Below are positions 22,721-57,595 of a DNA stretch of 64,000 bases, in pieces (the first letter of the stretch is position 1; every line of letters begins with the position of its first letter). This stretch comes from Chloranthus sessilifolius (taxonomy: Eukaryota > Streptophyta > Magnoliopsida > Chloranthales > Chloranthaceae), in NCBI GenBank assembly GCA_021018995.1, contig CM037586.1:146672060-146736059 (forward strand). The letters are read 5' to 3'. Under the pieces are notes generated by a model. That model did no database searches. It was not told the DNA's origin and saw only the letters and a list, made by a program, of their open reading frames with translations. The position numbers and the translations under genes were made by a program.

Positions 22721-22754
22721 ATTTTAAGACAATAATTCTATAGCACAAAAGATG

Positions 22755-23825
22755 ATGGAACTCTCTAACACGAAGATCACGAAACTCGAATGCTTTAATG
22801 GCACCAATTTCAAATGATGGCAATCAAAAGTACATTTTCTACTCACAACTTTGAAAGTCGCATACGTTCTCACTATGGACTCACCATCATTGGAGAAAGA
22901 AGATGAAATGCTTGAAGAAGGTAGAATCCGTACGAAATGGGAAAGCGATAATTACACATGCAAAGGCTATATTCTCAACGCTCTTGCCGATTCTCTTTTT
23001 GACGTCTATCAAATTTATAAAACTGCAAAGGAGATATGGGAGGCTCTTGAACGTAAGTACAAAGTAGAAGAGGCCGGCGCGCGCACATACTTAGTAAGTG
23101 AGTTATTTAATTTTAAGATGTATGATTCTAAACCTAATTTAGAGCAAGTGTACCAAATGCAGATTATCTTCAACAATCTTGTGACGGAAGGAAGCACAAT
23201 AGACGAAGGTTTTCAAGTCTCTGTGGTTATTGCAAAATTACCGTTGGGATGGAAATATTACCATAAGAGTTTGAAACATACGAAGGAAGATCGTACTATG
23301 GAGGAACTCTTGACTCATCTTCGCATAGAAGAAGAGGCTCGTCTACGTGACAAGGAGGAGAAAACTGAACTCGTCTCCAATGCATATATTGTTGAAGATG
23401 CATCCACATCGAAGAAGAAGAACAAAGGGAAGAACTTCAAACTGAAGCCGAATAAGAAGGATTTCAAGAAAGGACAATACAAGGAAAAAGCAAAGAAGGG
23501 TACTTATTTTTATTGCAATAAACCCGGCCATTTCAAACGTGATTGCCGAGAATTTTTGAAAAATAAAAATCAGGCAAACATTGTGGGTGAAGAAGATCTC
23601 GTTGCGGTGATCTCCGAAGTCAATATGGTAGATGGTGGAAATAAATGGTGGCTCGATTCTGGAGCTACTAGGCATGTTACTTCTGATAGGAATAATTTTA
23701 TATCCTATGAGGAGGCTCATGATGGACATGAATTGTTCATGGGAAATTCCACTACTGCCAAAGTGGTAAGCCAAGGCAAAGTTGTTCTACACTTTACTCA
23801 CAGAATGGTGTCCTTCATGTTCTGA
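22755..23825 (+). CDS. copia gag and protease region (fossil)
   Basis: The gag part has the UBN2-type signature: LECFNGTNF at the start, then KEIWEALERKY, LVSELFNFKM and LEQVYQMQIIFNNL, followed by a Lys-rich stretch and the zinc knuckle CNKPGHFKRDC. About 35 residues later comes the protease motif WWLDSGATRHVTSD, with the D-S-G active-site triplet. This is the standard N-terminal half of a copia polyprotein, forming capsid and cleaving it. Part of a broken element. Confidence 0.85.
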
Positions 23826-26638
23826 AATCAAAAAAATCTTGTATAAACATATTCTGAACAAACATGGATTCAATATTGTGATCGAATCCGATTCCATTGT
23901 ACTTTCTAAGAAAGGGATGTTTGTAGGCAAGGGGTATGCCTCTTGTGGAATGTTTAAGTTCAATATCAATGAAAAATCTGCTTCTTCAGTTTATATGTGT
24001 GACTCAATTTATTTATGGCATAATAGATTAGGGCATTTAAATTTACGTTCTATGGATAATATGATTAAATTAGAACTTTTTCCTAAAATACATATAAATT
24101 ATGGTAAAGATAGATGTAGCATATGCGTCCAATCTAAAATGACTAAAAAACCATTTAAAAGTGTTGAAAGACAATATAAACTATTAGATTTAATTCATAC
24201 TAATTTGTGTAGTTTAAATAATATTACCACTAAAGGAGGGAAAAGATATTTCATCACTTTTATTGATGATTGTTCTCGACTTACATATATTTTTCTTCTT
24301 CAATTAAAAGATGAAGCATTTAGTAAATTTATCTCTTATAAGGCCTTAGTGGAAAATCAATTAGATTTTAAAATTATGGCATTACGATTGGATAGGGGAG
24401 GTGAATACATGTCACATGAATTTTCTAAATTTTATGACAAGTATGAAATTATTCATGAAGTCACCGCTCCATGTTCTCCTCAATCAAATGGAATTGTCGA
24501 AAGGAAAAATCGGACTCTAGTAGAAATGGTAAATTCTATGTTAACAAATTCTGGTTTGAATTCAAATTTATGGGGAGAAGCATTGCTTACTGCATATTAT
24601 ATTTTAAATCGGATACCTTTTAAAAAGTCTTCTAAAACTCCATATGAAATTTGGAAGAACAAACCTCCCAAATTATACTATTTAAAAGTATGGGGCTGTA
24701 GAGCATTAGTTAGGGTACCCGATTATAAACGTACAAAATTAGGTCTTAAAGTCATTGAATGTATTTTTGTGGGATATTCTATTAATAGTCCTATATACAG
24801 ATTTTTAGTATGTGAGCATAATAATATTTTTGAAAATGATTCAATTTTTGAATCTAGAGATGCAGTATTTTATGAGAATACTTTCTCTACTATTTCTAAA
24901 CCTCTTGCATCCTCTAACTTAGATGAATCTTCTGATTCTCTTCATCTCTCTAGTAGTGAAGATGAAAAGATGGAACCTAGAAGAAGTAAGAGACCTAGGA
25001 AAGCCACCGATTTTGGGTCAGATTTCTATGTGTATCTTGTAGAAGGAACCAGAAATGAGAAAACTAAGAAAATGAAGTTTATTTTTAATATCGATGAAGA
25101 TCCTCAAACTTTTGATGAAGCTGTTAAGTCTATTGATTCTGCATTTTGGAAAGAAGCTATAAATGATGAAATGGATTCTATCATGTCCAATAATACTTGG
25201 GAATTAGTAGACTTACCACAGGGATCTAAACTTATAGGTTGTAAGTGGATATTTAAAAGAAAACTTAATCCTAATGGCACTATAAATAAGTTTAAGGCTA
25301 GACTTGTTGCCAAAGGTTTTAGACAAAAGCATGGTATTGATTATTTTGATACCTATGCTCCAGTGGCTAGGATTTCTTCCATAAGGATCTTATTTGCTCT
25401 TACTTCTATATATAAACTTCAAGTTCATCAAATGGATGTTAAGACCGCCTTTTTAAATGGTGAACTTGAAGAGGAAGTATATATGGATCAACCAGAGGGT
25501 TTTATCATGCAAGGACATGAAAATAAAGTTTGTAAACTTATTAGGTCCCTATATGGTCTAAAACAGGCTGCATGAAAAATTTGATAGTATTATTTTATCA
25601 TATGGATTCAAGATTAATGAATCAGATAAATGCATTTATAGTAAGATATCAAAGGGTAAAGGAATAATTATTTGTCTCTATGTGGATGACCTCTTAATTT
25701 TTGGTACAGACTTAGAAAGTATTATATATACAAAAAGTTTTTTGGCTTCAAAATTTGATATGAAAGACATGGGTGAAGCCGATGTAATTCTTAGAATAAA
25801 ATTATTTAAGCAAGATAATAATATTATTTTATCTCAGTCACACTATATAGAAAAAGTGCTAAAGAAATTTAAACATAATGGAAAATTAGCACCAACACCT
25901 TTTGATCCAAGTATAAAATTAAAATCCAACGATAGTAGAAGTGTATCTCAATTAGACTTTTCTAGAGTAATTGGTAGTTTAATGTATGCTACTCATTGCA
26001 CTAGACCTGATATTGCTTATGCGGTAGGGAAATTAAGTAGATATACTAGTAATCCTAGTCATGAACATTGAAAAGCAATTAGTAGAGTATTAAGTTATCT
26101 TAATAAAACTAAGGATTATGCTTTACATTATGTTGGTTATCCTACTGTACTTGAGGGATACACAAATGCTAGTTAGAACAATGATACAGATGAGTCAAGG
26201 TCTACTAGTGGATGTGTATTTACACTTGGAGGTGCCGCAGTTTCTTGGGGATCAAAGAAACAAGCATGCATAACACATGCAACTATGGAATCAGAATTTA
26301 TTGCTCTTGCGACAGGGAGTAAGGAAGCAGAGTGGTTAAGGAATTTACTATTAGAAATTCCTATTTGGCCGAAGCCTATGCCACCAATCTCTTTATTCTG
26401 TGATAGTGAAGCTGCGCTATCTAAAGCTTATAGCAAAATTTATAATAGAAAGTCTAGACATATAAGTTTAAGACACAGTTATGTTAGTCAATTACTCTGT
26501 GAAAGAGTAATTACTATCAATTCAATACGGACCTTTGCAAATTTAGCGGATCCATTTACAAAAGGTCTTGCAAGAGATGTAGTTATTAAAACATCAGAAG
26601 GGATGGGTTTAAAGCCTAATAGATTACATCACCTATGA
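23782..26638 (+). CDS. copia integrase, reverse transcriptase, RNase H region (fossil)
   Basis: In order: the pre-integrase motif LWHNRLGHLNLRSM; integrase core with FITFIDDCSR, DRGGEYMSHEF and SPQSNGIVERKNRTL; a Ser/Glu-rich linker ending in RRSKRPRKATDFG; reverse transcriptase with WKEAINDEMDSI, CKWIFKRKLN, KARLVAKGFRQKHGIDY, MDVKTAFLNGELEEEVYM and the catalytic YVDDLLIFG (about 25680); and RNase H with ESEFIALATGSKEAEWLRN. The order PR-INT-RT-RH defines Ty1/copia. Broken. Confidence 0.9.
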
Positions 26639-27188
26639 TGGTAACCCGACCTATTTTCTAAAGTCCAGAAACTAAAGGTTCAATGGGAAAATAAATCATA
26701 TGTAGTGATTGCACATTATTAAAAGTGCGAGTTTACAACTCCAACCATCTCAAGTAATAATGTGGAACTTGTAACGTAAGGAAGAGGTTGAGGTATTTCT
26801 CTTAATCAGTCTATAGCATATAATGTTGAAATGTTTAAGTTACAAGGGCATTTATGATAGAACTGACCTATATGAGTTACGAAGTGTGGCCGCTTCGAAG
26901 AAAGATAAAGGCTTTTCTTAAATACAACTCACGAATACCGGGGTATAAGCACAAGGCCATAAAACGTGGTGGCTGTTAAAATGAAATGAAACTTAGATTA
27001 CTTATGTGTGTGATATATCCGGTTGATTATACAAGAAAATTAGTTCAAGAAATTAGATCACTAAAGTTCTTTATCAACTTTGATCTATTCTCACTAAGTG
27101 AAGTTTCAATTCATTAGGACACCTTCATTTATGCATACAGTAGTCAAGAAATGCTTAAATTTCTTTGGTACATATATATACTATTTTT
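26639..27188 (+). other. 3' untranslated region of copia element, conserved in a relative
   Basis: No frame. Segments such as TATGATGGTAACCCGACCTA, GAAGAGGTTGAGGTATTTC, TTAAGTTACAAGGGCAT and GTGTGGCCGCTTC have clear counterparts in the same order at 8385-8690 in the non-autonomous element. Confidence 0.65.
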
Positions 27189-27760
27189 GGTTGACTTGTT
27201 GACCGGGCACGAATTGACTTCGCACGTGTGCACCATGTGTGCATTAGGCAGTTTCCGACCGTTCAAGGAAACAGTCGGATTTCGGATTCGAACAAACAGT
27301 TACGATTTCGAATTTAGACAAATCAGTTGACCAAAAGATGTAACTGTTCGGATGTGAACCGTTGGATCCTTGCAATCGTTGATCGGATCGATCAGGGCCC
27401 TCGATTGCAAGTAACCGACAGACACAACCGCCCCTGAAAATGTGCTCCGAAAGTTATAAATAGAGGCCAGAGGAGGGATTCTAAAACACTTGCAATTTCT
27501 GAATCTTACATCTGAGCCCTCAGAATTCGTGTGCAAACCAGAGCATTCTGCGTCTTCTTTTCGTTGGGTCGCACACTACAGAGCAACGTAGTGTGTGACA
27601 GATCGGTTCTTCACTGAGGCTTCATTGTATCCTGGAGGCGAATTTGCCGATATCCCGTTGCATATAGGGGGCAAATATTGTCTTAAAGACAGCGATCTAA
27701 TCGCGCCTTGAAGCAATTTTTCGGTCTATTTTCTGTCAATCTTTGTGCAATATACTAACA
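27189..27760 (+). repeat. 3' LTR of copia element
   Basis: Aligns with 22161-22720 of the 5' LTR, starting GGTTGACTTGTTG. It includes the TATA box TTATAAATAG near 27454 and ends TATACTAACA, followed by the CCTTA target copy. Confidence 0.9.
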
Positions 27761-27765: not shown

Positions 27766-28368
27766 TTGCATTTTTACATATCACATGTCCCCAAAATACC
27801 AAGTCTTTCGTTAAATTCGGTGCAATCACTTGAAAAACGTGTGCAAGTAATGGCTCCCTAGCTATTTTATTAGTATACATAATATTCACTGGACTAGTAG
27901 TTTTTATGGCCCAAAACGTGGCATGATCATGGCTGTTTCACTTGACATGGAGGCATCTAACCTCCCCCCATATATATGTAGCATTATAGCCAAAATCCCA
28001 AAGCAAATTCCTATAGAAATTCATCTTTTATGTTGTTTTCTAAATGTTCCGGTGGCTCAAAATATTCAGCCAAACCCAAACATTCAAATTATGTCTATTG
28101 CCCATTTTAGAAAATTTCTATGAATCTTATGGGGGTTACAACTATTTGATGACCTTAATAAATATTTTCTAACTATAAAATTTAAATTTTGTTACTTGAA
28201 CGACTTTAGAAACCAATTCTTGTTCACCAAAATGTCTTTCATTCCTTGTCACATGTAACTAGGGAATCTCTAGTATGGAATCCTTTATAAGATATTTAAT
28301 TGTGAAGATAGACAAAAACAACTTAAATAAAACTAAGATATATAAGCATCAACAGAGGTTTTCGGTAC
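27766..28368. other. No gene seen
   Basis: AT-rich DNA continuing the sequence interrupted by the copia element. I looked for the last THF1 exon on the minus strand here (a Lys/Glu-rich C-terminus) and did not find it. Confidence 0.45.
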
Positions 28369-28484
28369 TTGTCTATGTATTCCTTTAAAAGCTCCTTAGC
28401 TTGAACCAACTTGGAGAGAAGGTTCCGATACACGTCAAGGTCCTTGTCCACGCTTCGCTTGTTTACATTTAACATTGCACAAAG
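28369..28484 (-). pseudogene. THF1: THF1 exon (LCAMLNVNKRS... segment)
   Basis: From an acceptor TATTAATAG the exon reads LCAMLNVNKRSVDKDLDVY, then RNLLSKLVQAKELLKEYIDK, and meets a donor GTACCG. This is the strongly conserved C-terminal helical region of THF1. No stop inside. It follows the 50619-50835 exon in phase 0, 22 kb away because of the inserted element. Confidence 0.92.
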
Positions 28485-28870: not shown

Positions 28871-29454
28871 GTTGATGGGTTACTGTAAACAATAAATTTG
28901 CATAGGATATAAATCTAACACAAATCAATCATAACAAATTTTCCCTCGTTAAGAGAAAGTTTTATTAAAATGGGGGACCTTACACTTTCGTGTATCACAG
29001 TCGATTCCCCATTAATTACATCAAAATTGAATACCTCTGATTAAAAGCTACTAAATAAAAAATCACGTAATTACATCTCTGAAATAAATAAAACTAAGAT
29101 TCTAATTCTAAGTCATCATCGACATCTTCAATCCATCATGAGATAAATGGATAGCAGACTATCTTCATTGGAGATTTGAGAAATATGAAATAGGGGCCGA
29201 CGGATGGGAGAACCCCTCCTCCAAAAGCCGGGTCCATTTAATCGAAAAACACGAGTCATTTTTGAAGCAAGAAACTCGTGGACGAGTCTTAAAATGAATT
29301 CTTGTTCTCTGATCTCAAAGATGAGTTCGAATACCAAATCCATTTTTCGGGCAACTGATTATCAGAAGAGTTATCACTTTCAGCGATAGAGTGTCTAATC
29401 ATCAGCTAGATATTGTCAAATTCCTTTAAATTTGATGATCATAGATGATTTTAT

Positions 29455-30130
29455 AATGATTTTATCATTAAATTTAATCAATATCTTAATATTTAGTCAA
29501 TGCATAGTAAATCCACCGTTAGATCTCGTTACGATCTCACATTATGATCTTTTGGCTAAAAGTCAATGATTCCACCATTAGATTTGTTCAAAATCACAAG
29601 ATCTGATCAATATGCAATAAATCTACCGTTGGATCGCATTACGATCTCACATTATGATCGTTTGACTAAAAGTCAATGATTTTACTATTAGATTTGACTA
29701 CAATCACAAGATCTGGTCAGCATATAATAAATCCATCGTTGAATCTCATTACGATCTCACATTATGATCATTTGACTAAAAGTCAATGATTCCATTGTTG
29801 GATTTGACTACAATCACAATATCTGGTCAATATATAATAAATCTACCGTTGAATCTAATTACGATCTCACATTATGATCGTTTAACTAAAAGTCAATGCG
29901 TCCACCGTTAGATTTGACCAAATTTATAAGATCTGGTCAATATATAATAAATCCACCGTTAAATTTCATTACGATCTCATATTATGATTGTTTGACTAAA
30001 AGTCAACGAGTCTAACGTTAGATTTGACCAAATTTATAAGATCTGGTCAATATGCGATAAATCCACCGTTGGATCTCGTTACGATCTCATATTATGATTG
30101 TTTTGACTAAGAGTCAACGAGTCCACTGTG
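29455..30130. repeat. 110-bp tandem repeat, six copies (3' LTR)
   Basis: ACGATCTCA(C/T)ATTATGATC recurs at 29531, 29641, 29751, 29861, 29971 and 30081, an exact 110-bp period. Each unit also has CCACCGTTRGATCT and TTGACTAAAAGTCAA, a palindromic word. The copies are diverged. Confidence 0.9.
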
Positions 30131-30667
30131 AAAAAATTTTCGATCTCGAGGTTAAGGTCCAAACCCTCATTATAGGGAGTGATGATCCGAACCGCGAGAG
30201 AAACTCTAATTATCATAGATTAATATTTTAGGTATTATAGTTCGAAATTATTTTTCGGGTTCGTGATTGCAACCCGTATGAGCATCGAATTTGTGGTTGC
30301 AATCCGAGTATATTAGGAGTTATGCCCAGGGTCGTACCCACGTGGCTTAACTATTTCTAAGTACGCAAGAAATTGGGTATGAGTCGTAACGCGTAATCCC
30401 AAATTATAACTATAAATCCTACTTAGGAGGAGCCATAGCTCTTATCCTAAGCATATCTCCTTTAGATAAGTGTCGTAGCCCTTATCCTAAAAGTCTTAAT
30501 CCTAACTTATTCCTCTCGTCCACTTTTAAAAAAAGAAAATTAAAAAAAAAAAAAAAATAGTCAGAATCTCGGAGATACCTTAAAGTCTTTTTTAGAAGAG
30601 TCGGAGATATTTTCGGCAGAGCTCTCGTGTCAGAATTTTCGGATCTCTTGCAATGAGGACGGATCTG

Positions 30668-30677
30668 CTATTTATAG
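30668..30677 (-). promoter_or_regulatory. Sense TATA box in 3' LTR
   Basis: CTATAAATAG on the minus strand, matching the position of the 48796-48807 site in the other LTR. It lies just downstream, in element sense, of the palindromic array, which would therefore be in U3. Confidence 0.5.
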
Positions 30678-30822
30678 ATTTATGGTAGTGGTTATATAAG
30701 TTACGATCCTACGATTCCCGTAAGGTTTTCATGAAATGAACGGTTGAGAGAGCTGCATAAGTTTTCGTGTTCACGCGAATTGAGAAAGATTCTTCTCAGG
30801 TATGTCATTCTTTTCTCATAAT

Positions 30823-33149
30823 CGCCTAGGTGGCTAAGTATGTTTCTAGCCACCTATGTGGATAAGTTTTTTTTCTATCCACCTAGGTGGATCAGTATTT
30901 TTCTATCCACTTAGATGGATAAGTATTTTTCTAGCTAGCTAGGTGGCTAGGTATATTTTTTATCCACCTAAGTGAATAAATATTTTTCTAGCCACCTAGG
31001 TGGATAAGTATTTTTCTAGCCAGCTAAGTGGCTAGATATATTTTCTATCCACCTAGGTGGATAAGTATTTTTCTAGCCGGCTAGGTATATTTTTTAGCCA
31101 CCTAGGTAGATATGTATTTTTCTATCCACCTAGGTGGATGAGTATTTTTCTAGCCAGCTAGGTGGCTAAGTATATTTTTCTAGCCACCTAGGTGGATAAG
31201 TATTTTTATATCCACCTAGTTGGATAAATATTTTTTCTAGCAAGCTAGGTGGCTAGATATATTTTTTATCCACCTAAGTGGATAAATATTTTTCTAGCCA
31301 CCAATGTGACTACGTATATTTTCTATCCACCTAGGTGGATAAGCATTTTTCTAGCCAGCTAGATGGCTAGGTATATTTTCTATCCACCTAGGTGGATAAG
31401 TATTTTTCTATCCACCTAAGTAGATAAGTATTTTTCTAGCCAGCTAGGTGGCTAAGTATATTTTTTATCCACTTAGGTGGATAAGTATTTTTCTATCCAC
31501 CTAGGTGGATAAGTATTTTTCTAGTCAGCTAGATGGCTAGGTATATTTTCTAGCCACTTAGATGAATAAGTATTTTTCTATCCACCTAGGTGGATGAGTA
31601 TTTTTCTAACCAGCTAGGTGTCTAAGTATATTTTTCTAGCCACCTAGGTAGATAAGTATTTTTATATCCACCTAAGTAGATAAGTATTTTTCTAGCCGGC
31701 TAGGTATATTTTCTATCCACCTAGGTGGATAAGTATTTTTCTAGCCACCTACGTGACTATATATATTTTCTATCCATCTAGGTGGATAAGTATTTTTTTA
31801 TCCACTAAGGTGGATAAGTATTTTTCTAGCCAGCTAGGTGGCTAGGTGGATAAGTATTTTTCTATCCACCTAAGTGGATAAGTATTTTTCTATCCAGTTA
31901 GGTGGCTAGGTATATTTTTCAGTCACCTAGGTGGATAAGTATTTTTCTATTCACATAGGTGGATGAGTATTTTCCTAGCAAGCTAGGTGGCTAAGTATAT
32001 TTTTCTAGGTGGATAAGTATTTTTCTATTCACATAGGTGGATGAGTATTTTCCTAGCAAGCTAGGTGGATAAATATATTTTTCTAGCCACCTAGGTAGAT
32101 AAGTATTTTTTCAGCCAGTTAGGTAGCTAGGTATATTTTCTAGCCACCTAGGTGGATAAGTATTTTTCTATTCACTTAGGTGGATGACTATTTTTATAGC
32201 CAGCTAGGTGGCTAAGTATATTTTTCTAGCCACCTAGGTGGATAAGTATTTTTATATCTACCTAGGTGGATAAGTAGTTTTCTAGCCAGCTAGGTTGCTA
32301 GGTATATTTTCTATTCACCTAGATGGATAAGTATTTTTCTAGCCACCTACGTGACTACGTATATTTTTTATCTACTTAGGTGGATAAATATTTTTCTATC
32401 CATCTAGGTGGATAAGTATTTTTCTATCTATTTAGGTTGATAAGTATTTTTCTAGCCAACTAGCTGACTAGGTATATTTTCTATCCACCTAGGTGGATAA
32501 GTATTTTTATGTTCACCTAGGTGACTACGTATATTTTTCTATCCACATAAGTGGATAAGTATTTTCCTAGCCAGCTAGGTGGCTAAGTATATTTTTCTAG
32601 CCTACTAGGTGGATAAGTATTTTTTTATCCACCTAGGTGGATAAGTATTTTTCTAGCCAGCTAGGTGGCTAGGTATATTTTCTATCCACCTAGGTAGATA
32701 AGTATTTTTCTATGACCTAGGTGGTTACGTGTATTTTCTAGCCACCTAGGTGGATAAATATTTTTCCATTCACCTAGGTGAATAAGTATTTTTTTCTAGC
32801 CAACTAGGTGGCTAGGTATATTTTCTATTCACGTAAGTGGATAAGTATTTTTCTATTCACCTATGTGACTACGTATATTTTCTAGCCACCTAGGTGGATA
32901 AGTATTTTTCTAACCACCTAGGTGGATAAGTATTTTTCTATCCACCTAGGTGGATAAGTATTTTTCTAGCCAGCTAGGTGACTAGGTATATTTTCTATCC
33001 ACCTAGGTGGATAAATATTTTTCTATCCACTTAAGTGGATAAATATTTTTTCTAGCCAGCTAAGTGGCTAGGTATATTTTTTATCCACCTAGATAAGTAT
33101 TTTTCTATCCACCTGGGTGGATAAGTATTTTTCTAGCCACCTAGATGTC
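30823..33149. repeat. Palindromic CCACCTAGGTGG array, 2.3 kb (3' LTR)
   Basis: About 80 units of 28-29 bp alternate between TATCCACCTAGGTGGATAAG and GCCAGCTAGGTGGCTAGG forms, joined by TATTTTTCTA spacers. The core CCACCTAGGTGG is its own reverse complement, and many units extend the symmetry to 18 bp. Units vary by point changes that often keep the two half-sites paired. Present in both LTRs with different copy number. Confidence 0.95.
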
Positions 33150-33204
33150 TGACATAGTTTAGGACTTTAAATCCTATTTAGAGTAGGATTTGTTAAAAAG
33201 AAAA

Positions 33205-33214
33205 CTATAAATAG
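33205..33214 (+). promoter_or_regulatory. Plus-strand TATA box facing the antisense gene
   Basis: CTATAAATAG sits 100 bp inside the LTR edge on the plus strand, downstream of the palindromic array. It points toward the plus-strand mobile-domain gene at 34990. The same site is kept in the other LTR at 50406-50415. A promoter role is inferred from motif and position. Confidence 0.45.
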
Positions 33215-33313
33215 TCTCTTTTCCTAATTCCTTTTATTAATTTATTCTATCTGATTTTTTAAGGCTAAGTGGAAGAAGAAAAAATTCCCAATTCCAAAAT
33301 TTTTGAGTCAACA

Positions 33314-33849
33314 GGTGCCTCCTAGATTTATTATTATTATATATATATATATATATATTTTTTAATAAAAAAAAATGAAAATCATAATAATAATAAAAAA
33401 TTTGATAAAAATCGATATAAAATTTATTTCTTATAAGAATTTTATTACTGATTAATAATCATATTCTCTATGGAGATTCGATTCATTAAAATCTGACTAG
33501 TGATCCTATTCTCTACGGAGATTTGATCATTGAATTTTTTGAAAAAAAATTTGGGTCCATCGAATGATCTTATTTCAATCTAAGAGATTTTTCAGGAGAT
33601 GAATTTTTTATTTCGAGATTAATCAGACTGTAATTCCTACGGGAATACTGTATACTGATTTATGGTTATAGGATTTGCGATTCTTATGAGGACGCTCTCC
33701 GATTATCAAAATGAATCTCCTAGATTGGATTTGCGATTCTTACGAGAGCACTCTCCATCTACTAAAATGAATCTCCTAAATCTCTTAGACGATCCGGTTA
33801 AAATTTATGAACCTTAATAAATCGATAACAACAATTATGAAATTGATTC
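33314..33849. other. AT-rich region between 3' LTR and 163-bp repeats
   Basis: No frame. On the minus strand the bases touching the LTR read CTAGGAGGCACC, a modest purine-rich stretch that could serve as polypurine tract. An (AT)10 run lies near 33340-33360. Confidence 0.45.
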
Positions 33850-34777
33850 TCTATTGACCATTGATCTCGATGTAGATTGGGCAGTCGAAATTAAATCCAA
33901 AAGATCTACTTCGGCTACCCGGGCAGATATGCCTGATTTCAGGTTGTTTACAGAGATCGAAACGTCCATAAAAATATTTTCTAAAAATCACAAAAATTAT
34001 GAGGTTGATTTTATACTGACCATTGATCTCGATGTAGATCGGGTGGTCGAAATTAAATCTGAAAGATCTACTTTGGCTATCTGGGCAGATCTGACTGATT
34101 TTGGAACGTTTAAAGAGATCGAAACATCCCTAAAAATATTTTCTAAAAATCAACAAAAATTATAAGATTGATTTTATATTGACCATCGATCTCGATGTAG
34201 ATCGGGTGGTCGAAATTAAATCCGAAAGATCTACTCTGATTACTCGGGCAGATCTGACTGATTTTGGGACGTTTACAGAGATCAAAACGTCCTTAAAAAT
34301 ATTTTTTTTAAATCAACAAAAATTATAAGGTTGATTTTATATTGACCATCGATCTCAATACAGATCGGATGGTCAAAATTAAATCCGAAAGATCTACTTT
34401 GGCTACCCGGGCAGATTTGACTGATTTTGGGATGTTTACAGAGATCATAATGTCGTTAAAAATATTTTCTAAAAATCAACAAAAATTATGAGGTTGATTT
34501 TATATTGACCATCGATCTCGATGTAGATCGGGTGGTCGAAATTAAATCAAAAAAATCTACTTTGGCTACCCGAGCAGATCTGATTGATTTTGAGACGTTT
34601 ACAGATATCGAAATGTCCCTAAAAATATATTTTTTTAAATCAATAAAAATCATGAGGTTGATTTTATATTGACCATCGATCTCAATGCAGATCGGGTGGT
34701 CGAAATTAAATCCGAAAGATCTACTTTGACTACCCGGACAGATCTGATTGATTTTGGGACAAAGATCGAAATGTCCC

Positions 34778-34841
<64 letters not shown>

Positions 34842-34900
34842 AAATCAACAAATTATGAGGTTGATTTTATATTGACCATCGATCTCGATGTCAATAAAAC
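33850..34900. repeat. 163-bp tandem repeat, six or more copies
   Basis: GACCATYGATCTCGATG starts units at 33856, 34018, 34181, 34344, 34507, 34671 and 34874, with spacings of 162-164 bp apart from the last, which is enlarged by an (AT)n run at about 34779-34826. The unit also contains AAATCCGAAAGATCTACT and GGGCAGATCTGACTGATTT. Short open frames across it repeat a 54-residue pattern because the period is near a multiple of three; I do not take these as genes. The array forms the leader of the antisense gene. Confidence 0.9.
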
Positions 34901-34989
34901 AACATAATTCAAATGGATTTTAAAATGTAATCTAACTCCCTTATTTATTTATTTATTTATTCATTTTCACAGATTTCCTCTTATTAATC

Positions 34990-37900
34990 ATGTCAAAAGA
35001 GAAATCTTCTGATTGTAAAGTTGATCGAATTAGAAGATCGGGTGATATCGGGAATGATTTCTCTGGGGTATCCTTGCGAAGACAACTTCCTTGTTTTAGC
35101 CCTAACATAGCTCACAGAAGACATCATGCATCACCAACCGACGAGTGGTGGACTAGTCTAAGCAGATCGTTGAAGTTTGGGAGTTTGGGGTCACATCTTT
35201 CTAAACCCCGGCAAGAGGATGGTATTGATTTAATGTTTTTGAAACCAGATCGTGTTTTTTTATCGAATGAAGAATTCCATAGCCCACAATCTTTTCATAC
35301 CTTTGCTCAGAGGTTCATAGATAAAGAGTCAGGCGTCAGATGGAGTGACAGTTTTCATTTAAGAGGAGCAGCATCAACCAACTTAAGTTTTCACCTCTGG
35401 GTCGTACAAGTGTTATCAGAGTTTCGTGGCGAATTGAAAAGATGTAAGTTGTTGACAGCAATTGCATGTGCACGAGGGCGATATGACAGTAGTAAAAATA
35501 TGATGCGCGCTCTAATTGAAGCCTTTTGTCCACTTACTAACTCTTGGATCTTTCCTTGGGGGGAAGATGGTATAACATTGGAGGAATTATTTCATATTAG
35601 TGGTCTACCGCTTACAGGCTTTATGTACAATGAGTGCATTCCTGAGAATAATCTTCTATATGGAATACAGGAAGACGGAGAGACACCTTTCTATAAGCCT
35701 GAAATACTTAACTTGTTTGAAATTTTCGATCAAATTGTAAAGGAAATCGTAAAGAATGATCCTGATGTGAAAAAAAGAAATGCAAATCATGGACAATGCA
35801 TGTCTTACTTCCTAGATTTTTATGATCAAAATGGCAACATTATCCACTCTTTTACTTCAAAAAGGGATGTTCTTCAAGTAGTCCGAATTGAAAAGAAGTC
35901 TTCGCTAATGATTAGTCGTGGGACTTATTTCTCGACTTTTTTAGCATTTTTTTAAGCAGGTTCGCACTTCCGACTCAGGAAAAAAGTGTTCGTGCCGAAA
36001 CGTTCATAATAGCAGGGGAGATGGCAAATAGAGCTACTTATGTTGTCGGTCCAGCCGTCCTTGCTAGCATATTTTATAGCTTTGACCAATTAAAGAAGTG
36101 TAGCAATCCAGGGAATTCGGGGGCTCATTTCCCTATTCATTATTTCTTTGGATGGGTGGGAGCCCATTTTCCTTCCACTTATAATTGGAGGGAGTTTGAA
36201 CTTAGGCCAAGAATCCCCTTCTTACTGAGTATTTTGGAGTGGGCAGCCGGTGCTCATAGTTTGAAAGGAGCTCGAGATTTAATGCGGAATCCCCGATCGT
36301 TCAAGTTTCGACCATTTGGGCATTTCTTACCATACAATGACCAACTTTCATGGGAAGATCAAGCTAATCCAGACAGAGATACCTCTGTGTTTCCCATCGA
36401 AATCCTTCACTATTTTTTGAGCTTACGACAAAATTTATTATCATTACGTCTTGGCAACCATAAATTGTTCGTACCATATTATCCGGCCTGATATGCTAGA
36501 CAATTAGGTTATGATCAAATTATTCCCCCGACCCCTCTTTCTTTGGATGCACGCAAAGATGTTACTGTTGCAGATTTAGTGACGACATTCAATACACATA
36601 GTGCGCGAGGAACTAAGTCGTGTTTTACGACTCGCCATGCTCATGTTTCTGATCGTACTTCCTTAATGTGGTGCTATTGGTGGCATGCGAATACCAATGT
36701 TTATTTTTTCAATAGATTATTAGAGCTAGCTCCTAATGAACAAGATGGTGACGTTGCGAAACTCAATGCACTTATGCATATTCCCTCTGAATTTTTTACT
36801 GATATTTTTCGAGAGGTGTGGCCTATGAAGACGTCTTTTGCGAGAAGTCCTGGGAATATTAATGTCTTCAACTGTTCTTCATGCATTGGTTTTGACAAGC
36901 CATACACGATTTTCGACGATAAGCGTGACGAGGTAGAAAAGTCCTCTTCCAATGTATTGGGGAAACGAGTCCTGTCACCAAAAAGATGGGAGAACAACAA
37001 AAAGCCAAAATCGGTGGTACATAATGATAGGAGAGGTGAGGGTATCTTATCATCTTATGCAATTTCAAAAGCTCAAGGGGCCTCTGTAAGTCCTTCAAGG
37101 GGATATTATGTTCCGCTCCTACCCAATCAGAATCAAGAGCATATGGCTGAAAGTTCAATTATTTCTTCTCTTGATGCTTTTCTTGCGGAGTTAGAAAGCG
37201 TTCCCATGACCTCACACTTTTCTAACATGGGTAAATTTATCTTTTTTTTTTTTTTTAATATTTAAAAAGAACTTTGTTGATGTTAATAAACGATATTTTG
37301 TAACAGAAAATCTTCCAACGCCAGATGGGTGTATCGAAAAAGAAATCACTGCTACAAATATGCATGACCAACAAGAGTTGATAGACGATTTACTCAGAAC
37401 TGAAGATATGACTGATTATTCGTTTCTTACAAATATTGGGGTTGGAAAATACCTCAATGATCAGGAATTTGAGTTTGGGATTCCTCCTCACATCACCGGA
37501 ACCAGCGAGACTACGGGGTTAGAAAAACCACATAGTGATCGGGGTAATTGTCTCATTTCGGGTAATAAGACTATGAAGGTATTCAGGAAAGAGAATAGTA
37601 ACGATGATGGGTCAGACGCTAGCCATTTGTGTTCTTCTGAGGAGTATTCCTCTACTGAAGAAGATGCACAAATTTCAGAGATACCTTTGGCAGTTACCTT
37701 TGTTGAATCTCAATTAAAGATCCCATCAACCATTGAGGCCATTCCGCGGGAGAAAGTTAATTTCATCTTGCCCCCAAGACTTGACTCACAGGCCTCGACC
37801 ACTTCTCCTACACCCATTATAGCAGAGTCACCTAACCAGCAATTTTCAAGGGAAGACCCATTATCTGAACCAGAACCTTCTTTAGTGACAATGAATATGG

Positions 37901-38045
37901 ACGTCATTCCCTTCAATCCTCCGGATCTATCCGTGTCAACTGTCCTCGCCTCATCTAGCGGAGTTTCTTCAAAGAGTGAGTTTTCATCTCATTATTTACA
38001 ATTATACATCTATTATAATTTTATTATATATATATATATATATAT

Positions 38046-38083
<38 letters not shown>

Positions 38084-38751
38084 TCTTTTTTTTCGTAGAT
38101 GTTGAAGACTTGATTAATAAGCCTATCCTATCGGCCTTCAAAAGGAATCGAAGAAGGAGTCATCTGAAGAATATTGTCGAACTTCTGAAGGGAGTCCTCC
38201 CTTATGTGGAGAATGAAAATGATTTTACGCTAATAGAGCAAGATTTATATGTAGCATGTGATGAGATCTCCAAAATTGACGGTGATGATCTGTCATTTAA
38301 GTCTGAAGTTGAATATATTCTGGATTTATCTCAAAAAATGAGGAAAAGCGAGTTGTGGACTTCTGAAGAGGCTATCAAGAGTGAGATTGCGAAGGAACTG
38401 CAAAAAATTGAAGATCATAATACAATTAGTTTTGCTATGACAAACAAATTGTGTGATATCTCAACTCTTGAAGAAACTATGAAGGTTCGAATTGAGAAGA
38501 CAAACATTCTGAGGCTTGAACTTGAGGAGCTTGAAAAGGGTATTGCCAATTCAAGACAAACTTTGGTGGCCAAATCTGAACTGGTTAAGAAGGATCAACG
38601 ATTATTAGGAGATCTGGAGGAAAAGAAGAATCATCTGCTGGTTAGAGAAGAAGAAATAGGAGCTAAGAAAGAGAAACAACTTTCAATTTTGCGTCAATTA
38701 ATGACTGATAAGGATGCCGCGATAGATTCATTAGGCAAATTTGACAAATAA
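34990..38751 (+). CDS. Antisense plant-mobile-domain (PMD) accessory gene of Tat element
   Basis: Plus-strand coding segments lie at 34990-35955, 36021-36491, 36543-37265 and 37360-38751. The first two show features of the plant mobile domain (MAIN/MAIL1-like, Pfam PF10536): DEWWTSLSRSLKF, the SWIFPWGEDGITLEELFHIS-GLPLTG block and later GWVGAHFPSTYNW. The third is basic and Ser-rich near its end. The fourth is acidic, then from about 38101 a long coiled coil (LRLELEELEKGIANSRQ, LLGDLEEKKNHLLVREEE). GT-AG-bounded intervals at 37231-37316 and 37976-38098 look like introns, as expected for a plant-transcribed gene. PMD proteins act in the nucleus in gene silencing and expression control; the role here is unknown. 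Tat relatives are known for extra ORFs in this position. The segments are broken or partly diverged. Confidence 0.75.
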
Positions 38752-38886
38752 GAGTTATGTTTATTTCACAAATTCTTTTGATTGGTTGAATTTCATATTT
38801 GTTATACATTTTCCCATTCCTTGAATAATTAATACATATATATATATATTTCAAATTTTGAAGAAGCCAACTTTTATTGCTTCATT

Positions 38887-39196
38887 CCTTACGCAGTTTA
38901 TCCTCATGCGAGTAGGAGATAACATATAAACATACCTATATTGTTTACATTACCAATATACCTAAGTACAAATCTTACGCAATTTATCTTCATGCGAGTA
39001 GGAGATAACATATAAGCATACTTATGCTGTTTACATTAACAATGTACCTAAGTACAAACCTTACGCAGTTTATCCTCATGCGAGTAAGAGATAACATATA
39101 AACATACCTATGTTGTTTACATTAACAATGTACCTAAGTACAAACCTTACGCAGTTTATCCTCATGCGAGTAGGAGATAACATATAAACATACCTA
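38887..39196. repeat. 86-bp tandem repeat, four copies, at the convergent gene junction
   Basis: ACGCARTTTATC(C/T)TCATGCGAGTA recurs at 38891, 38977, 39063 and 39149, an exact 86-bp period. The array lies between the 3' end of the antisense gene (38751) and the 3' end of pol (39194), where the two transcripts would converge. Confidence 0.95.
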
Positions 39197-40201
39197 TGGA
39201 TAGTATCGCTTTAGAAAGCGACCATTAATAGGAGGAGATTCATTTCCTTCTGCATCAACCAATATATAAGCGCCATTTGAATAGACAGTTTCTATTACAA
39301 AAGGTCCTTCCCATTTAGGCTCAAATTTCCTTGGAGTTTTCCGGGTAACAATCATAGGGCGACGAATAGTAAAGACTAGGTCCCCTTTCTTAAAGGATCG
39401 ACGCTTCACCTTTTTTTCGAATGAATTTGACATGTGAGCACGGTATGCCTCCATGCTTTGTTGGGCTTTGAGCCTACACTCATCCAAGGCTTCAAGTTCT
39501 AAGAACCTGAGTGCAGCATTTTGCTCTTTGGTGAGATTGTGACTTAATGCTACTCTTAAAGAAGGAATCTGGACCTCTAAGGGTAATAATGCTTCACCTC
39601 CAAATACTAATGCATATGGAGTGGCCTGTGTAGGAGTACGATGAGTCGTTCAGTAAGCCCATAAGGCTTCCTGCAATCTTTCATGTCAGTCACGTTTATT
39701 TTTAGCAACTGCCTTTTTCAATAATTTGACCAATGTCTTGTTAAAAGCTTCCGCCAAGCCATTTGCAGATGGGTTGTATATCGTAGAGCAATATTATTTT
39801 ATTTGATACTTAGCGCAAAACTTGTTTATCACTTTATTCTTGAATGGTGTGTCGTTATCATTAACGATACGAGAAAGAATCTCGTACCGGTAAATGATAT
39901 GTGTAAGTATGAAGTCTGCAACTGTATTAGCTTTAACCTCTTTAAGTGCTACTGCTTCTGCCCATTTCGAAAAATAATCGGTTGCAGCTAATATAAACTT
40001 ATGTCCAACAGATGATGGGGGGTGTATTGGACCTATGATGTCCATACCCCATTCTTTAAAAGGCCATGACGTGACCGTAGGGTGTAAGGGTTTTGGTGGA
40101 CGGTGAATGAAATCAGCGTGGATTTGGCAAACCTGACATCTTTTAGCAAAATCTATACAATCATTCACCATAGTCGACCAATAGTAGCCTAAATGTTTCA
40201 A
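39194..40201 (-). CDS. Tat integrase region (fossil)
   Basis: The upstream part has MKHLGYYWSTMVNDCIDFAK-RCQVCQ (zinc-binding region), then FKEWGMDIIGPI and AATDYFSKWAEAVAL of the catalytic core. The C-terminal part has FKKGDLVFTIRR, KFEPKWEGPFVIETVYSNGA and FLKRYYP, the usual end of Tat pol. Broken. Confidence 0.88.
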
Positions 40202-40587: not shown

Positions 40588-42648
40588 TTATGTTTTTCTA
40601 ACTACATAAGATCCTTCTAACTGTCTTATGACGAGCTGAGAATCCCCAAATACACCAAGGGTGTAAATGGCCATGTCTAAGGCTAATTCTAAACCAATGA
40701 CTAATGCCTCATATTCGGCAGCATTATTAGATAGGTATTCTGTTAATGTGAAGAAATATGGAAGCAACCCATTACTTGATGTAACAAATACAATTCCAGC
40801 GCCTGCTCCTGCCGCTTGCGAAGCTCCATCAAAATATAATTTCCATCTTTGTATTATTTCAGCATAATATACTTCTTCATCTGGTAGGTCTTCGGATAAC
40901 GATAAATTCCCAGGAATTGGATGAGCGGCTAGAAAATCGGTTAGGGCTTGCCCTTTTACAGCTTTCTGATGTACAAAAGTTATGTCAAACTCTGACAAGA
41001 GTAAAGACCATTTAACAAGTCTCCCTGACAAAACTGGTTTTGTCATGAGAAATTTCAACGGATCCGCTCTACTTATCAAGTGGATTGGATGATCTAGTAA
41101 ATAATGTCGTAGCTTTTGTGAGGCAAAGACAAGAGCTAAGCAATTCTTTTCGATGAATGAGTAATTTCCTTCGGCCCCTATGAGTGTTCGACTGAGGTAA
41201 TATAGGGCATTTTCCTTATCGTCTTCGTTCTCCTGAGCTAACAAAGCCCCAAGCGAGTTATCCATGACTACTATATATAGGATTAAATGTTTCCCTTTAA
41301 TTGGAGCAGTCAAGACTGGCGGATGCAATAAATATTCTTTCAAACTATCAAAAGCCCTTTGACAATCTTCATTCCATTCGAATGGGACTCCTTTCTTCAT
41401 CAGACGAGAGAATGGTTGAGATCGTCCTAAAATATTTGATATGAAGCGTCGGATATACGCAAGTCTTCCCTGTAGTCCTTTTAATTCGCGAATGTTCTTT
41501 GGAGGTGGCATCTCTATGATGGCCTTGGTTTTCACTAGATCAACTTGTATACCTCCATGTTGAACAACAAATCCGAGAAACTTTCCTGAAGTGACTCTGA
41601 AAGCGCATTTTAGTGGATTCATTTTCAAGTTGTACTTTCGGATTTTACAAAATACTTGATATAGGTGGGCCAAGTGATCACCTCTACTCTTTGATTTTAC
41701 TACGAGGTCATCTACGTAGCATTCGACTGTTTCATGTAGCAATTCCTTGAATATCTTCGTCATTGTACGTTGGTAAGTAGCTCTAGCATTTTTTAGTCTA
41801 AATGGCATGACTTTATAACAAAAGATTCCACTTGGGGTTCGAAAAGCTGTTAGTTCTTCATCTCCAGGTGCCATTCGTATTTGGTTGTATCCGGAGTATC
41901 CATCCATGAAGGACATGGTTTCACAACCGACAATGGAATCAATCAAGAGTTCTGAAATAGGCAAGGGAAATTCATCCTTGGGACATGATGCATTAAGATC
42001 TCTGAAATCAATGCATACCCTAATTTGACCATTCTTCTTCTTGATCGGGACTACGTTAGCAACCCATGTCGGATATTTGACTTCAAGGATAAAGTCGGCA
42101 TTGACTAACTTGTCGATTTCTGCTTTTACCTTTATGGTTATATTTGGATGAAGTCGCCTTTGAGCTTGTTTAACGGGTTTGATGTCAGGATTGACAGCTA
42201 ATTTGTGAGCGGCAATTTTGACATCTAACCCTGGCATATCACGATATGTCCACGCAAACACATCTCGATTCTTCTTTAAAAAATCGGTATAAGTTGTTAA
42301 TTCCTCTGTAGAGAGTGCAACACTCACATAAGTAATCTGAGGATCTTCAAGAGTTCCCAAGTTGACCTCTTGTAGGTCGTCAACGGTGGTTTGTATTCCT
42401 TCTTCAAACTGATGAGAAGCGGGAATAGGCTCTTCCGAGGCTAGGATAGAAATCATATAAGATCTGAGATATTTTGTGAGAATCACTGTAGGCCTATGCT
42501 CGAGACCACCTTTTAATGGATGTAAATATCCATCATTATAGGCTGCCCATTTCTGTGCACGAGATGGTATCACATCGAAAGGTGCAACCATTCCTATTCC
42601 ATCTTTTAGACCTCCTTTCGAGAGATCATATCTCATTTTTTTTATCAT
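40588..42648 (-). CDS. Tat reverse transcriptase, RNase H and second RNase H (fossil)
   Basis: One long frame of 686 codons. Reverse transcriptase motifs: VCIDFRDLNASCPKDEFPLP, MDGYSGYNQIRMAPGDEELT and the catalytic YVDDLVVKS. Then the classical RNase H/connection region (PFEWNEDCQRAFDSLKEYL, FIEKNCLALVFASQKLRHYL). At the C-terminus comes a second RNase H of the archaeal-like type with LYFDGASQAAGAGAGIV, NNAAEYEALVIGLELAL and GDSQLVIRQLEG. Dual RNase H is diagnostic of the Tat lineage. The neighbouring pol parts lie in separate segments. Confidence 0.93.
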   Translation of the reverse strand: MIKKMRYDLSKGGLKDGIGMVAPFDVIPSRAQKWAAYNDGYLHPLKGGLEHRPTVILTKYLRSYMISILASEEPIPASHQFEEGIQTTVDDLQEVNLGTLEDPQITYVSVALSTEELTTYTDFLKKNRDVFAWTYRDMPGLDVKIAAHKLAVNPDIKPVKQAQRRLHPNITIKVKAEIDKLVNADFILEVKYPTWVANVVPIKKKNGQIRVCIDFRDLNASCPKDEFPLPISELLIDSIVGCETMSFMDGYSGYNQIRMAPGDEELTAFRTPSGIFCYKVMPFRLKNARATYQRTMTKIFKELLHETVECYVDDLVVKSKSRGDHLAHLYQVFCKIRKYNLKMNPLKCAFRVTSGKFLGFVVQHGGIQVDLVKTKAIIEMPPPKNIRELKGLQGRLAYIRRFISNILGRSQPFSRLMKKGVPFEWNEDCQRAFDSLKEYLLHPPVLTAPIKGKHLILYIVVMDNSLGALLAQENEDDKENALYYLSRTLIGAEGNYSFIEKNCLALVFASQKLRHYLLDHPIHLISRADPLKFLMTKPVLSGRLVKWSLLLSEFDITFVHQKAVKGQALTDFLAAHPIPGNLSLSEDLPDEEVYYAEIIQRWKLYFDGASQAAGAGAGIVFVTSSNGLLPYFFTLTEYLSNNAAEYEALVIGLELALDMAIYTLGVFGDSQLVIRQLEGSYVVRKT

Positions 42649-42693
42649 ATTCGCAACCTTTTTGCTGTATCGTGTAAATTGAAGAGGTTCTTT

Positions 42694-47022: not shown

Positions 47023-47596
47023 GAAATTTGTAAACAATAAATTTGCGTAGGATATAAATCTAACACAAATCAATCATAACAAATTTTCCCTCGCTAAGAG
47101 AGGGTTTTATTAAAATGGCGGACCTTATACTTTCGGGTATCGCAGTCAATTCTCCGTTAATTATATCAAAATTGAATACCTCTGATTAAAAGCTACTAAA
47201 TAAAAAATAACGTAATTACATCTCTGAAATAAACAAAACTAAGATTCTAATTCTAAGTCTTCATCGATGTCTTCAATCCGTCATGAGATAGATGGATAGC
47301 AGACTATCTTCATCGGAGATTTGAGAAATATGAAATAGGAGACGACGGATGGGAGGACCCCTCCAAAAGTCGAGTCCATTTGATCGAAAAGCACGAGTCA
47401 TTACTGGAGCAAGAAACTCGTGGACGAGTCTTAAAACGAATTTTTATTCTCTGGTCTCAAAGATGAGTTCAAATACCAAATCAATTTTTTGGGCAACTGA
47501 TTATTAGAAGAGTTATCACTTTCAGTGATAGAGTGTCTAATCATGAGTTGGATATCGTCAAATTCCTTAAAATTTGATAATCATAGATGATTTTAT

Positions 47597-48272
47597 AATA
47601 ATTTTACTGTTAGATTTGATCAATATCTTAATATTTGGTCAATGCATAATAAATCCATCATTGGATCTCGTTACGATCTCACATTATGATCGTTTGACTA
47701 AAAGTCAATGATTCTATCATTAGATTTGATTAAAATCACAAGATCTGGTTAATATGTAATAAATCTACCGTTGGATCTCATTACGATCTCACATTATGAT
47801 CTTTTGACTAAAAGTCAATGATTTTACCGTTAGATTTGACTACAATCACAAGATCTGATCAACATATAATAAATCCATCATTGGATCTTATTACAATCTT
47901 ACATTATGATTGTTTAACTAAAAGTCAATGATTCCACTATTGGATTTGACCACAATCACAAGATCTGGTCAATATACAATAAATCTATCGTTGAATCTCA
48001 TTACGATCTTACATTATGATCGTTTGACTAAAAGCCAACACGTCCATCGTTAGATTTGATCAAATTTATAAGATCTGGTTAATATGCGATAAATCTATCG
48101 TTAAATCTCGTTACGATCTCATATTATGATCGTTTGACTAAAAGTCAATGAGTCTACCGTTAAATTTGACCAAATTTATAAGATCTGGTCAATATGCGAA
48201 AAATCCACCGTTGGATCTCATTACGATCTCATATTATGATCGTTTTGACTAAAAGTCAACGAGTCAACTGTG
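47597..48272. repeat. 110-bp tandem repeat, six copies (5' LTR)
   Basis: The ACGATCTC word recurs at 47673, 47783, 47893 (variant), 48003, 48113 and 48223, an exact 110-bp period. The copy number equals that in the other LTR, so the array predates insertion. Confidence 0.9.
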
Positions 48273-48795
48273 AAAAAATTTCCGATCTCGAGGTTAAGGT
48301 TCAAACCCTCATTTGAGGGAGTGATGATTCGAACCGCGAGAGAAACTCTAATTATCATAGATTAATATTTTAGGTATTATAGTCTGAAATCATTCTTTAG
48401 GTTCGTGATTATAACTCATATGAGCATCGAATTTGTGGTTGCAATCCGAGTGTACTAGGAGTTATGCCCAGGGTCGTACCCACGTGACTTAACTATTTCT
48501 AAGTATGCAAGAGATTGGGTAAAAGTCGTAACGCGTAATCCTAAATTACAATCATAAATCCTACTTAGGAGGAGTCGTAGCTCTTATCCTAAGCAGATCT
48601 CCTTTAGGTAAGGGTCGTAGCCCTTATCCTAAAAGTCTTAATCCTAACTTATTTCTCTCATCCACTTTAAAATAATAATAATAATAATAATCAGAATCTC
48701 GAAGATACCCTAAAGTCTTTTTTAGAAGAGTCGGAGATATTTTCGGCAAAGCTCTCGTGTCAGAATTTTCGGATCCCTTGCAATAAGGACGGGTC

Positions 48796-48807
48796 TATTA
48801 TTTATAG
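48796..48807 (-). promoter_or_regulatory. Sense TATA box in 5' LTR
   Basis: CTATAAATAATA on the minus strand. Transcription from just below 48790 would leave about 1.75 kb of R-U5 before the primer site. The palindromic array lies upstream of it in U3. Confidence 0.5.
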
Positions 48808-48950
48808 ATTTATGGTAGCGGTTATAGAAGTTATAATCCTACGGTTCCCGTAAGGTTTTCATGAAATGAACGGTTGAGAGAGCTGCGTAAGTTTTCGTCT
48901 TCATGCGGATTGAGAAATATTCTTCTCACGTATATCATTATTTTCTCATA

Positions 48951-50350
48951 ATCGCCTAAGTGGCTAAGTATGTTTCTAGCCACCTAGGTGGATAAGTGTT
49001 TTTCTAACCACCTAGGTGGATAAGTATTTTTCTAGCCAACTAGGTGGCTAGGTATATTTTCTATCCACCTAGGTGGATAAATATTTTTCTAGCCACCTAA
49101 GTGGATAAGTATTTTTCTAGCCAGCTAGGTGGCTAAGTATATTTTCTATCCACCTAGGTGGATAACTATTTTTCTAACCAATTAGGTATATTTTCTAGCC
49201 ACCTAGGTGGATAAATATTTTTCTATCCACCTAGGTGGATGAGTATTTTTCTAGCCACCTAAGTGGATAAGTATTTTTATATCCACCTAGGTGGATATGT
49301 ATTTTTTCTAGCCAGCTAGGTGGCTAGGTATATTTTCTATCCACCTAAGTGGATAAGTATTTTTCTAGCCACCTACGTGACTATGTATATTTTCTATCCA
49401 CCTAGGTGGCTAGGTATTTTTCTATCCACCTAGGTAGATAATTATTTTTCTAGCTAGCTAGGTGGCTAGGTATATTTTTTATCTACCTAGGTGGATAAGT
49501 ATTTTTCTAACCACCTAAGTGGATAAGTATTTTTCTAGCCAGCTAGATAGCTAAGCATATTTTCTATCCACTTAGGTGGATAAATATTTTTCTAGCCAGC
49601 TAGATAGCTAAGCATATTTTCTATCCACCTAGGTGGATAAGTATTTTTCTATTCATCTACGTGGATAAGTATTTTTCTAATCAGCTAGGTGGCTAGGTAT
49701 ATTTTCTAACCACTTAGGTGGATAAGTATTTTACTATCCACCTAGGTGGATAAGTATTTTTCTAGCCACCTAGGTGGCTAGGTATATTTTCTATCCATCT
49801 AAGTGGATAAGTATTTTTCTATTCACCTAGGCGACTACGTTATTTTTCTATCCACCTAGGTGGATGAGTATTTTCCTAGCCAGCTAGGTGGCTAAGTATA
49901 TTTTTCTAGCCACCTAGGTGGATAAGTATTTTTCTAGCCAGCTAGGTGGCTAGGTATATTTTCTATCCCCTTAGGTGGGTAAGTATTTTTTTATGACCTA
50001 GGTGGCTACGTATATTTTCTAGCCACCTAGGTGGATAAGTATTTTTTTCTAACCAACTAGGTGGCTAGGTATATTTTCTATCCACCTAAGTGAATAAGTA
50101 TTTTTCTATTCACCTAGGTGACTACGTATATTTTCTAGCCACCTAGGTGGATAAGTATTTTTCTAGTCACCTAGGTGGATAAGTATTTTTCTAGCCAGCT
50201 AGGTGGCTAGGTATATTTTCTATCCACCTTGGTGGATAAATATTTTTCTATCCACCTAAGTGGATAAATATTTTTTCTAGCCAGCTAGGTGGCTAGGTAT
50301 ATTTTTTATCCACCTAGGTGGATAAGTATTTTTCGATCCACCTAGATGTC
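48951..50350. repeat. Palindromic CCACCTAGGTGG array, 1.4 kb (5' LTR)
   Basis: About 48 units of the 28-29-bp palindromic repeat described for 30823-33149, starting and ending with the same unique flanks (ATAATCGCCTA... and CTAGATGTCTGACATAG). Copy number differs by about 32 units between the LTRs. Confidence 0.95.
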
Positions 50351-50618
50351 TGACATAGCTTAAGACTTTAAATCCTATTTAGAGTAGGATTTGTTAAAAA
50401 AGAAACTATAAATAGTCTCTTTTCCTAATTCCTTCTATTAATTTATTCTATCTGATTTTTTAAGGCTAAGTGGAAGAATAAAGAGTTCCCAATCCCAAAA
50501 TTTTCGAGTCAACAGCTACACAAAAGAGTGCTAGCCAACATGAATGAAACCTTATATGCGTAAAAGGAACAAAATTCCATGTGTTGGTTTTCATTGGACA
50601 AGGTGAGAAAAGCCTAAC

Positions 50619-50835
50619 CTTTTCTAAGATAGATGGCTCCATTGAATTCGCTAGCTCAAGAAGACGGATGAGCCCTATTGCAAAGAACCCGCTGTAGCTG
50701 AAACTCCCCTTACCTCCCGCCCTTTCAGAAATATTTTTTAGAATCCCCTCAACTTCTCCCTCTCTAAATGCAAACTCTACTAACGAATTGGCATTTTGAG
50801 TGCGCGCCCAATCTTCCAACTTTTGAGCATCATTT
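50619..50835 (-). pseudogene. THF1: THF1 exon (DAQKLEDWART... segment)
   Basis: Acceptor TTTTCTATAG at 50836-50841. The exon reads NDAQKLEDWARTQNANSLVE, then REGEVEGILKNISERAGGKG, FSYSGFFAIGLIRLLELANS and PSILEK, and ends at donor GTTAGG. No stops. It matches the central conserved region of THF1. The Tat LTR ends 104 bp downstream in the intron. Confidence 0.93.
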
Positions 50836-50841
50836 CTATAG

Positions 50842-51815: not shown

Positions 51816-51868
51816 CTAGCAAAGGGCAAAGAAAAAGGAGCTACTCATGATGGAACTATCACCACACA

Positions 51869-54364: not shown

Positions 54365-54368
54365 CGCT

Positions 54369-54380
54369 TGGTATCAAAGC
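54369..54380 (+). promoter_or_regulatory. Primer binding site, initiator tRNA-Met type
   Basis: TGGTATCAAAGC, one base different from the standard TGGTATCAGAGC, four bases after the LTR end. Confidence 0.8.
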
Positions 54381-54462
54381 GATTTCTTTAGCAATTCGGC
54401 AATTATTCTTTGGAGTCGAACATAGGGGCTTCGCTAACTAAACTTTAGTTTCAAATGCGCAA

Positions 54463-57577: not shown

Positions 57578-57595
57578 AAGATTTGGAGACATTAC

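Follow-up and report, generated by a model that had tools for sequence, protein, structure and literature searches.

An antisense plant mobile domain gene, probably spliced, in an old Tat-type retrotransposon of Chloranthus sessilifolius

Between the minus-strand integrase and the 3′ LTR of a retrotransposon in Chloranthus sessilifolius, coding frames run along the plus strand (34990-38751 of the 64,000-nucleotide stretch analysed, hereafter the window). What is this gene, and how did it come to lie against the direction of the element that houses it? A first-pass annotation had proposed a host plant mobile domain (PMD) gene captured by a giant Tat element. We consider it likely that the gene is an antisense accessory gene of a Tat-type element, most likely of the Ogre lineage, that its PMD protein is probably of the kind encoded by Gypsy elements, and that it would act through the mechanism proposed below. 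Genes of this kind are already known from such elements, and the locus is best seen as one more good example of them, not as a discovery.

The element itself is a Ty3/gypsy retrotransposon of 21.6 kb (21,631 bp), located at 28884-50514 on the minus strand. Its 3′ LTR (28884-33313, 4,430 bp, containing tandem arrays of 110-bp and of 28-bp units) starts with TG, ends with CA, and aligns to the 5′ LTR at 47029-50514 (3,486 bp), with an identity of 91-94% over the three non-tandem parts. The 5′ LTR is the shorter of the two mainly because its 28-bp array measures about 1.39 kb, compared to 2.32 kb in the 3′ LTR. Read from the sequence, the flanks are GTTAC (28879-28883) and GCTAC (50515-50519), identical at 4 positions out of 5, and resemble a 5-bp target-site duplication in which one base has changed. 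The internal region between the LTRs spans 13.7 kb (13,715 bp). The 28-bp repeat is partly self-complementary and is present in about 82 copies at 30825-33144 and 49 copies at 48955-50345, both in this same element, so the array has grown or shrunk, either since insertion or in the course of reverse transcription.

A single minus-strand frame of 701 residues (40591-42693) encodes the reverse transcriptase (RT), the RNase H and then a second RNase H-like domain, with four Pfam matches above cut-off (PF00078, E 1.2e-28; PF17919, E 4.3e-24; PF17917, E 9.6e-24; PF13456, E 1.7e-7). The integrase core and the end of its zinc domain follow in a later frame (39797-40201, minus strand; PF00665, E 1.6e-7, and PF17921, E 2e-4, neither quite reaching its Pfam cut-off). 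Seven upstream pieces, out of 11 minus-strand frames of at least 80 residues in that region, were compared to Pfam, and none matched gag or protease at E≤0.01. PF13456, placed after RT_RNaseH and before the integrase, corresponds to the extra RNase H that marks the Tat clade (Ogre/Retand type) at this position (PMC6317226). With this size and this domain order, the earlier assignment to a giant Tat-type element was borne out.

Within this clade, sizes point to Ogre. Ogre elements are reported to measure 16-25 kb, with LTRs of 1.9-6.5 kb and an internal region of 11-13 kb (PMC6431247); here the total length and both LTRs fit, and the internal region is slightly above the range. Retand LTRs, in contrast, spanned 315-1,194 bp in a survey (PMC11963269), a range into which the present LTRs of 3.5-4.4 kb do not fall. 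The same survey describes an antisense gene encoding TRP28 (PF04195) in all but two of 63 Retand clusters, whereas a PMD is found here and none of the five pieces of the antisense gene matched TRP28 at E≤1. The primer site of Ogre is complementary to tRNA-Arg (PMC9289625); here, a TGG was found 6 nt inside the 5′ LTR. The element is thus most likely a Tat-type LTR retrotransposon of the Ogre lineage, with its sizes and the presence of a PMD instead of TRP28 as the grounds for choosing Ogre over Retand. When the RT piece was used as the query, none of 13 pattern stretches in viral contigs and 16 in genome contigs was confirmed as a relative, these being collections of prokaryotes and viruses with no bearing on plants.

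The antisense gene is bordered by two tandem arrays, one of 163-bp units upstream (33827-34760, 5.7 copies) and one of 86-bp units between the gene and the end of pol (38887-39198, 3.6 copies). Four long plus-strand stop-to-stop frames are present in 34936-38751. The runs amount to 513, 321, 257 and 191 codons in the 3.76 kb of 34990-38751, those of 513 and 257 codons including putative intron sequence. By comparison, no run was longer than 181 codons across 500 sequences simulated at the same composition with a first-order Markov model, and runs on the opposite strand did not exceed 117 codons. This confirmed that the plus-strand coding frames exceed chance, and that an extra antisense gene lies between the minus-strand pol and the 3′ LTR, as had been annotated. 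In our model the gene is made of five pieces of 321, 178, 246, 222 and 216 residues. No other copy was found in the 64-kb window when all five were used as tblastn queries.

The PMD is carried by the first two pieces. The first (34990-35952) matched PF10536 with 33.7 bits (E 3.0e-8, or 3.3e-8 if started at 34936) over profile positions 7-58, and the second (35916-36488, in another frame) with 24.4 bits (E 2e-5) over positions 112-244. The two matches are collinear with the profile; each falls short of the curated Pfam threshold (34.9 bits) when the pieces are scored separately, unjoined, which may follow from the domain being split. The annotation had named the lack of any PF10536 match as an outcome that would refute it; this did not occur, as two of the five pieces gave matches, each below the cut-off. 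No PF10536 match was detected in pieces three, four and five at E≤1 (at E≤10 for the third). The third piece (36492-37230, same frame as the second) is an open frame, and neither it nor the fourth has any Pfam match; the fifth gave just two weak, unrelated ones (E 0.24 and 0.4). No solved structure matched the first PMD piece at E≤1. The sequence collections searched for PMD relatives consisted of prokaryotes, viral contigs and plasmids, and have no bearing on plants: with the first piece, none of 41 stretches in genome contigs and 5 in viral contigs was confirmed and plasmids gave no match, and with the second, none of 5 viral-contig stretches was confirmed.

The frame changes inside the PMD where the first piece gives way to the second, close to a T run at 35947-35953. 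A frameshift is the most likely cause. An intron might take its place, as 41 GT-AG pairs spanning 60 nt or more, with donors from 35600, would join the first frame to the second. However, without the eight residues before 35961 the second piece scored 16.7 bits against PF10536 instead of 24.0, so this stretch looks like domain and not like intron; acceptors at 35959 or later, which would remove these residues, are disfavoured, and the remaining candidate introns would take out more of the gene. Whichever is correct, an in-frame TGA (36489-36491) stays in place between the second and third pieces.

Two introns are likely further downstream, at 37231-37306 (phase 1, GTAAAT...AACAG) and at 37976-38098 (phase 1, 123 nt, GTGAGT...CGTAG, containing a TA array). 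Both calls are made from frame and splice consensus only: the consensus is good, the acceptors are T-rich, and the frames match on either side. The second putative intron is itself open in frame, so frame does not force its removal. Two introns had been annotated previously, and both are retained as probable, with the end of the first moved from 37316 to 37306. Ogre elements have an intron between their two polyprotein ORFs, on the sense strand (PMC6317226). For introns in an antisense PMD gene, we found no description in the literature searched, which is not proof of absence.

The two putative introns delimit a fourth piece (37307-37975) that is acidic (pI 4.31) and contains 21% Ser/Thr. The fifth piece (38099-38751) begins with a basic patch, followed by a predicted helix of 127 residues and the stop codon. 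A single-sequence AlphaFold2 model of this piece gave one helix at residues 89-215 (mean pLDDT 79.5, pTM 0.32), with a pLDDT that rises from 64-68 over residues 91-120 to 88-97 over residues 121-210, so that the helix is confident from about residue 121. Its 3.5-residue hydrophobic period was equalled in 14 of 2000 shuffles, and a heptad a/d test was not significant (227/500). A coiled coil, as annotated, is likely: the long helix and its periodicity were recovered, the heptad signal was not. The claim that a PMD-plus-coiled-coil architecture is undescribed had to be toned down, as antisense proteins containing SMC-like stretches have already been published for Retand (PMC11963269) and for ORF2 of 15 Ty3-gypsy families of common bean (PMC4093653).

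How intact is this copy? Between the LTRs, 97 transitions and 25 transversions were counted over the 1,447 sites of the three non-tandem parts (K2P 0.091), which corresponds to about 3.5 million years with a rate that we assume to be 1.3e-8. The antisense gene carries the in-frame TGA and one frame change. A neutral simulation run at half the LTR divergence predicted 4.8 stops in the five pieces, compared to the one seen, and at most one stop was obtained in 4.3% of runs; this test is weak, and takes the LTR divergence as a fair clock. In gag-pol, stops separate adjacent long frames ending at 44941, 44617, 44218, 43894 and 42696, some of which may be natural ORF ends, and the frame changes near 43,300. 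The element is an old, decayed copy.

Similar genes have been described several times. PMD-A1 and PMD-A2 are, as here, PF10536 proteins inside Ty3/gypsy elements of flowering plants, the present copy differing in being broken; they are exclusively encoded by Gypsy retrotransposons, across angiosperms (PMC5418596). PF10536 is carried by 57% of surveyed Ogre elements, and those with such extra ORFs resemble the present one in how long their LTRs and the whole element are, in where the second RNase H stands in the domain order, and in the extra PMD gene itself (PMC6317226). Across ten species, PMD was the commonest non-canonical domain in LTR consensuses (PMC9289625). As for antisense placement, the TRP28 genes of Retand also lie between pol and the 3′ LTR, adjoin tandem arrays and in some cases contain the SMC-like stretches mentioned above (PMC11963269). 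Gene23 of Grande is likewise an antisense accessory gene placed before the 3′ LTR; the review reports no PMD for it, and its promoter and nuclear product are known, whereas they are predicted here (PMC7264820). The ancestry of PMD was called open in the same work that described the Gypsy clades, domestication from Gypsy tending to be favoured (PMC5418596). This published evidence speaks for an old element gene.

In intact relatives, we propose that the gene would have a promoter of its own in the repeat-rich region beside the 3′ LTR, from which transcription would run opposite to gag-pol. Its transcript would be spliced and translated into a nuclear protein some 1,180 residues long, the PMD head of which might meet host chromatin or silencing partners while the helical tail self-associates. 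The outcome would be either a tuning of element transcription, or a countering of the silencing of the element. Persistence of introns would need no special mechanism, because introns antisense to the genomic RNA go unrecognised by splicing and are copied along at each transposition. Precedents for parts of this scheme exist, namely the own promoter and nuclear product of the Grande antisense gene (reviewed in PMC7264820), the predicted DNA binding of TRP28 (PMC11963269), and the action of host MAIN and MAIL1 with PP7L in silencing (PMC7156037). By analogy with these, a nuclear accessory role appears most likely, counter-silencing being one plausible form of it and an effect of the antisense RNA the main rival.

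The form in which the PMD product acts as a decoy, competing within host MAIN/MAIL1/PP7L complexes, is possible but doubtful. A counter-silencing use of element PMDs has already been suggested (PMC8616336), and was raised for PMDs captured by MULEs; against it, PMD-A belongs to a clade different from MAIN/MAIL (PMC5418596). We regard as somewhat less probable still that the antisense RNA itself is what matters, by pairing with the genomic RNA and feeding small-RNA silencing or copy-number control. Such a role has been suggested for antisense genes of this type (PMC7264820), and PMD genes are sources of phasiRNA in tea (PMC10673657), but the long, codon-structured frames argue for a protein, as does the published spread of the domain (PMC6317226, PMC5418596). 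Equally tentative is an extended version of the preferred nuclear role, in which the spliced antisense PMD gene with its helical tail would be an HBZ-like nuclear regulator directed against PMD-based silencing by the host, with introns shielded by orientation.

The capture of a host gene, as put forward in the first-pass annotation, fared poorly. A recent uptake of a MAIN/MAIL-type gene together with its introns would account for the likely introns seen here, and the capture of PMD-C genes by MULEs has been reported (PMC5418596). Yet PMDs borne by Gypsy elements form their own angiosperm-wide clades (PMC5418596) and are frequent in Ogre (PMC6317226), and the weak, split Pfam score is unlike that of a fresh copy, although this alone is not decisive. 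We consider a recent capture improbable. Nor is the gene placed like the host MAIN/MAIL genes themselves, which are genic and lie outside elements: it is inside an LTR pair, between integrase and 3′ LTR. The insertion of a separate DNA transposon into the 3′ region, such as a PMD-bearing MULE (the PMD was first described with a rice MULE, PMC5418596), is the least probable of all, as no piece of the gene matched a transposase, such as would be expected in a MULE transposase-PMD fusion, the 25 longest inverted pairs (out of 175 in 33310-39300) consist of AT-rich simple sequence, and the site is the usual one for antisense genes of related elements.

An element-borne accessory gene, the preferred reading, touches on a known puzzle: host PMD proteins silence elements, yet elements encode PMD proteins too, and the order of origin has been called open (PMC5418596). 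The interest of this copy is modest and lies in its clear antisense, probably spliced PMD-plus-helix architecture. Its anatomy, with antisense placement, likely introns, acidic linker and helical tail, may serve as a guide to intact relatives.

The surroundings of the element were also inspected. A THF1-like host gene (ThylakoidFormat, PF11264) straddles it on the minus strand, with profile positions 4-56 at 51624-51779, 85-153 at 50640-50918 and 169-210 at 28326-28484. From this arrangement the element probably sits in an intron of the THF1-like gene. The first exon region of the latter (51540-51779) contains two in-frame stops, the second of which may fall past the exon end, and this copy may be a pseudogene. 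A second Ty3/gypsy element, perhaps Athila-like, is found at 51868-64000. Its long repeats are spaced by about 10.2 kb and share 93% identity, and a sense ORF that follows the integrase matches Transposase_32 (PF20167, E 6.9e-9, below cut-off). On the other side, 22161-27760 is a Ty1/copia element whose end repeats, about 0.56 kb long, are 91% identical and whose gag and pol are spread across several frames. Finally, 6256-6815 and 8833-9356 form a repeated pair, 80% identical and about 2.6 kb apart.
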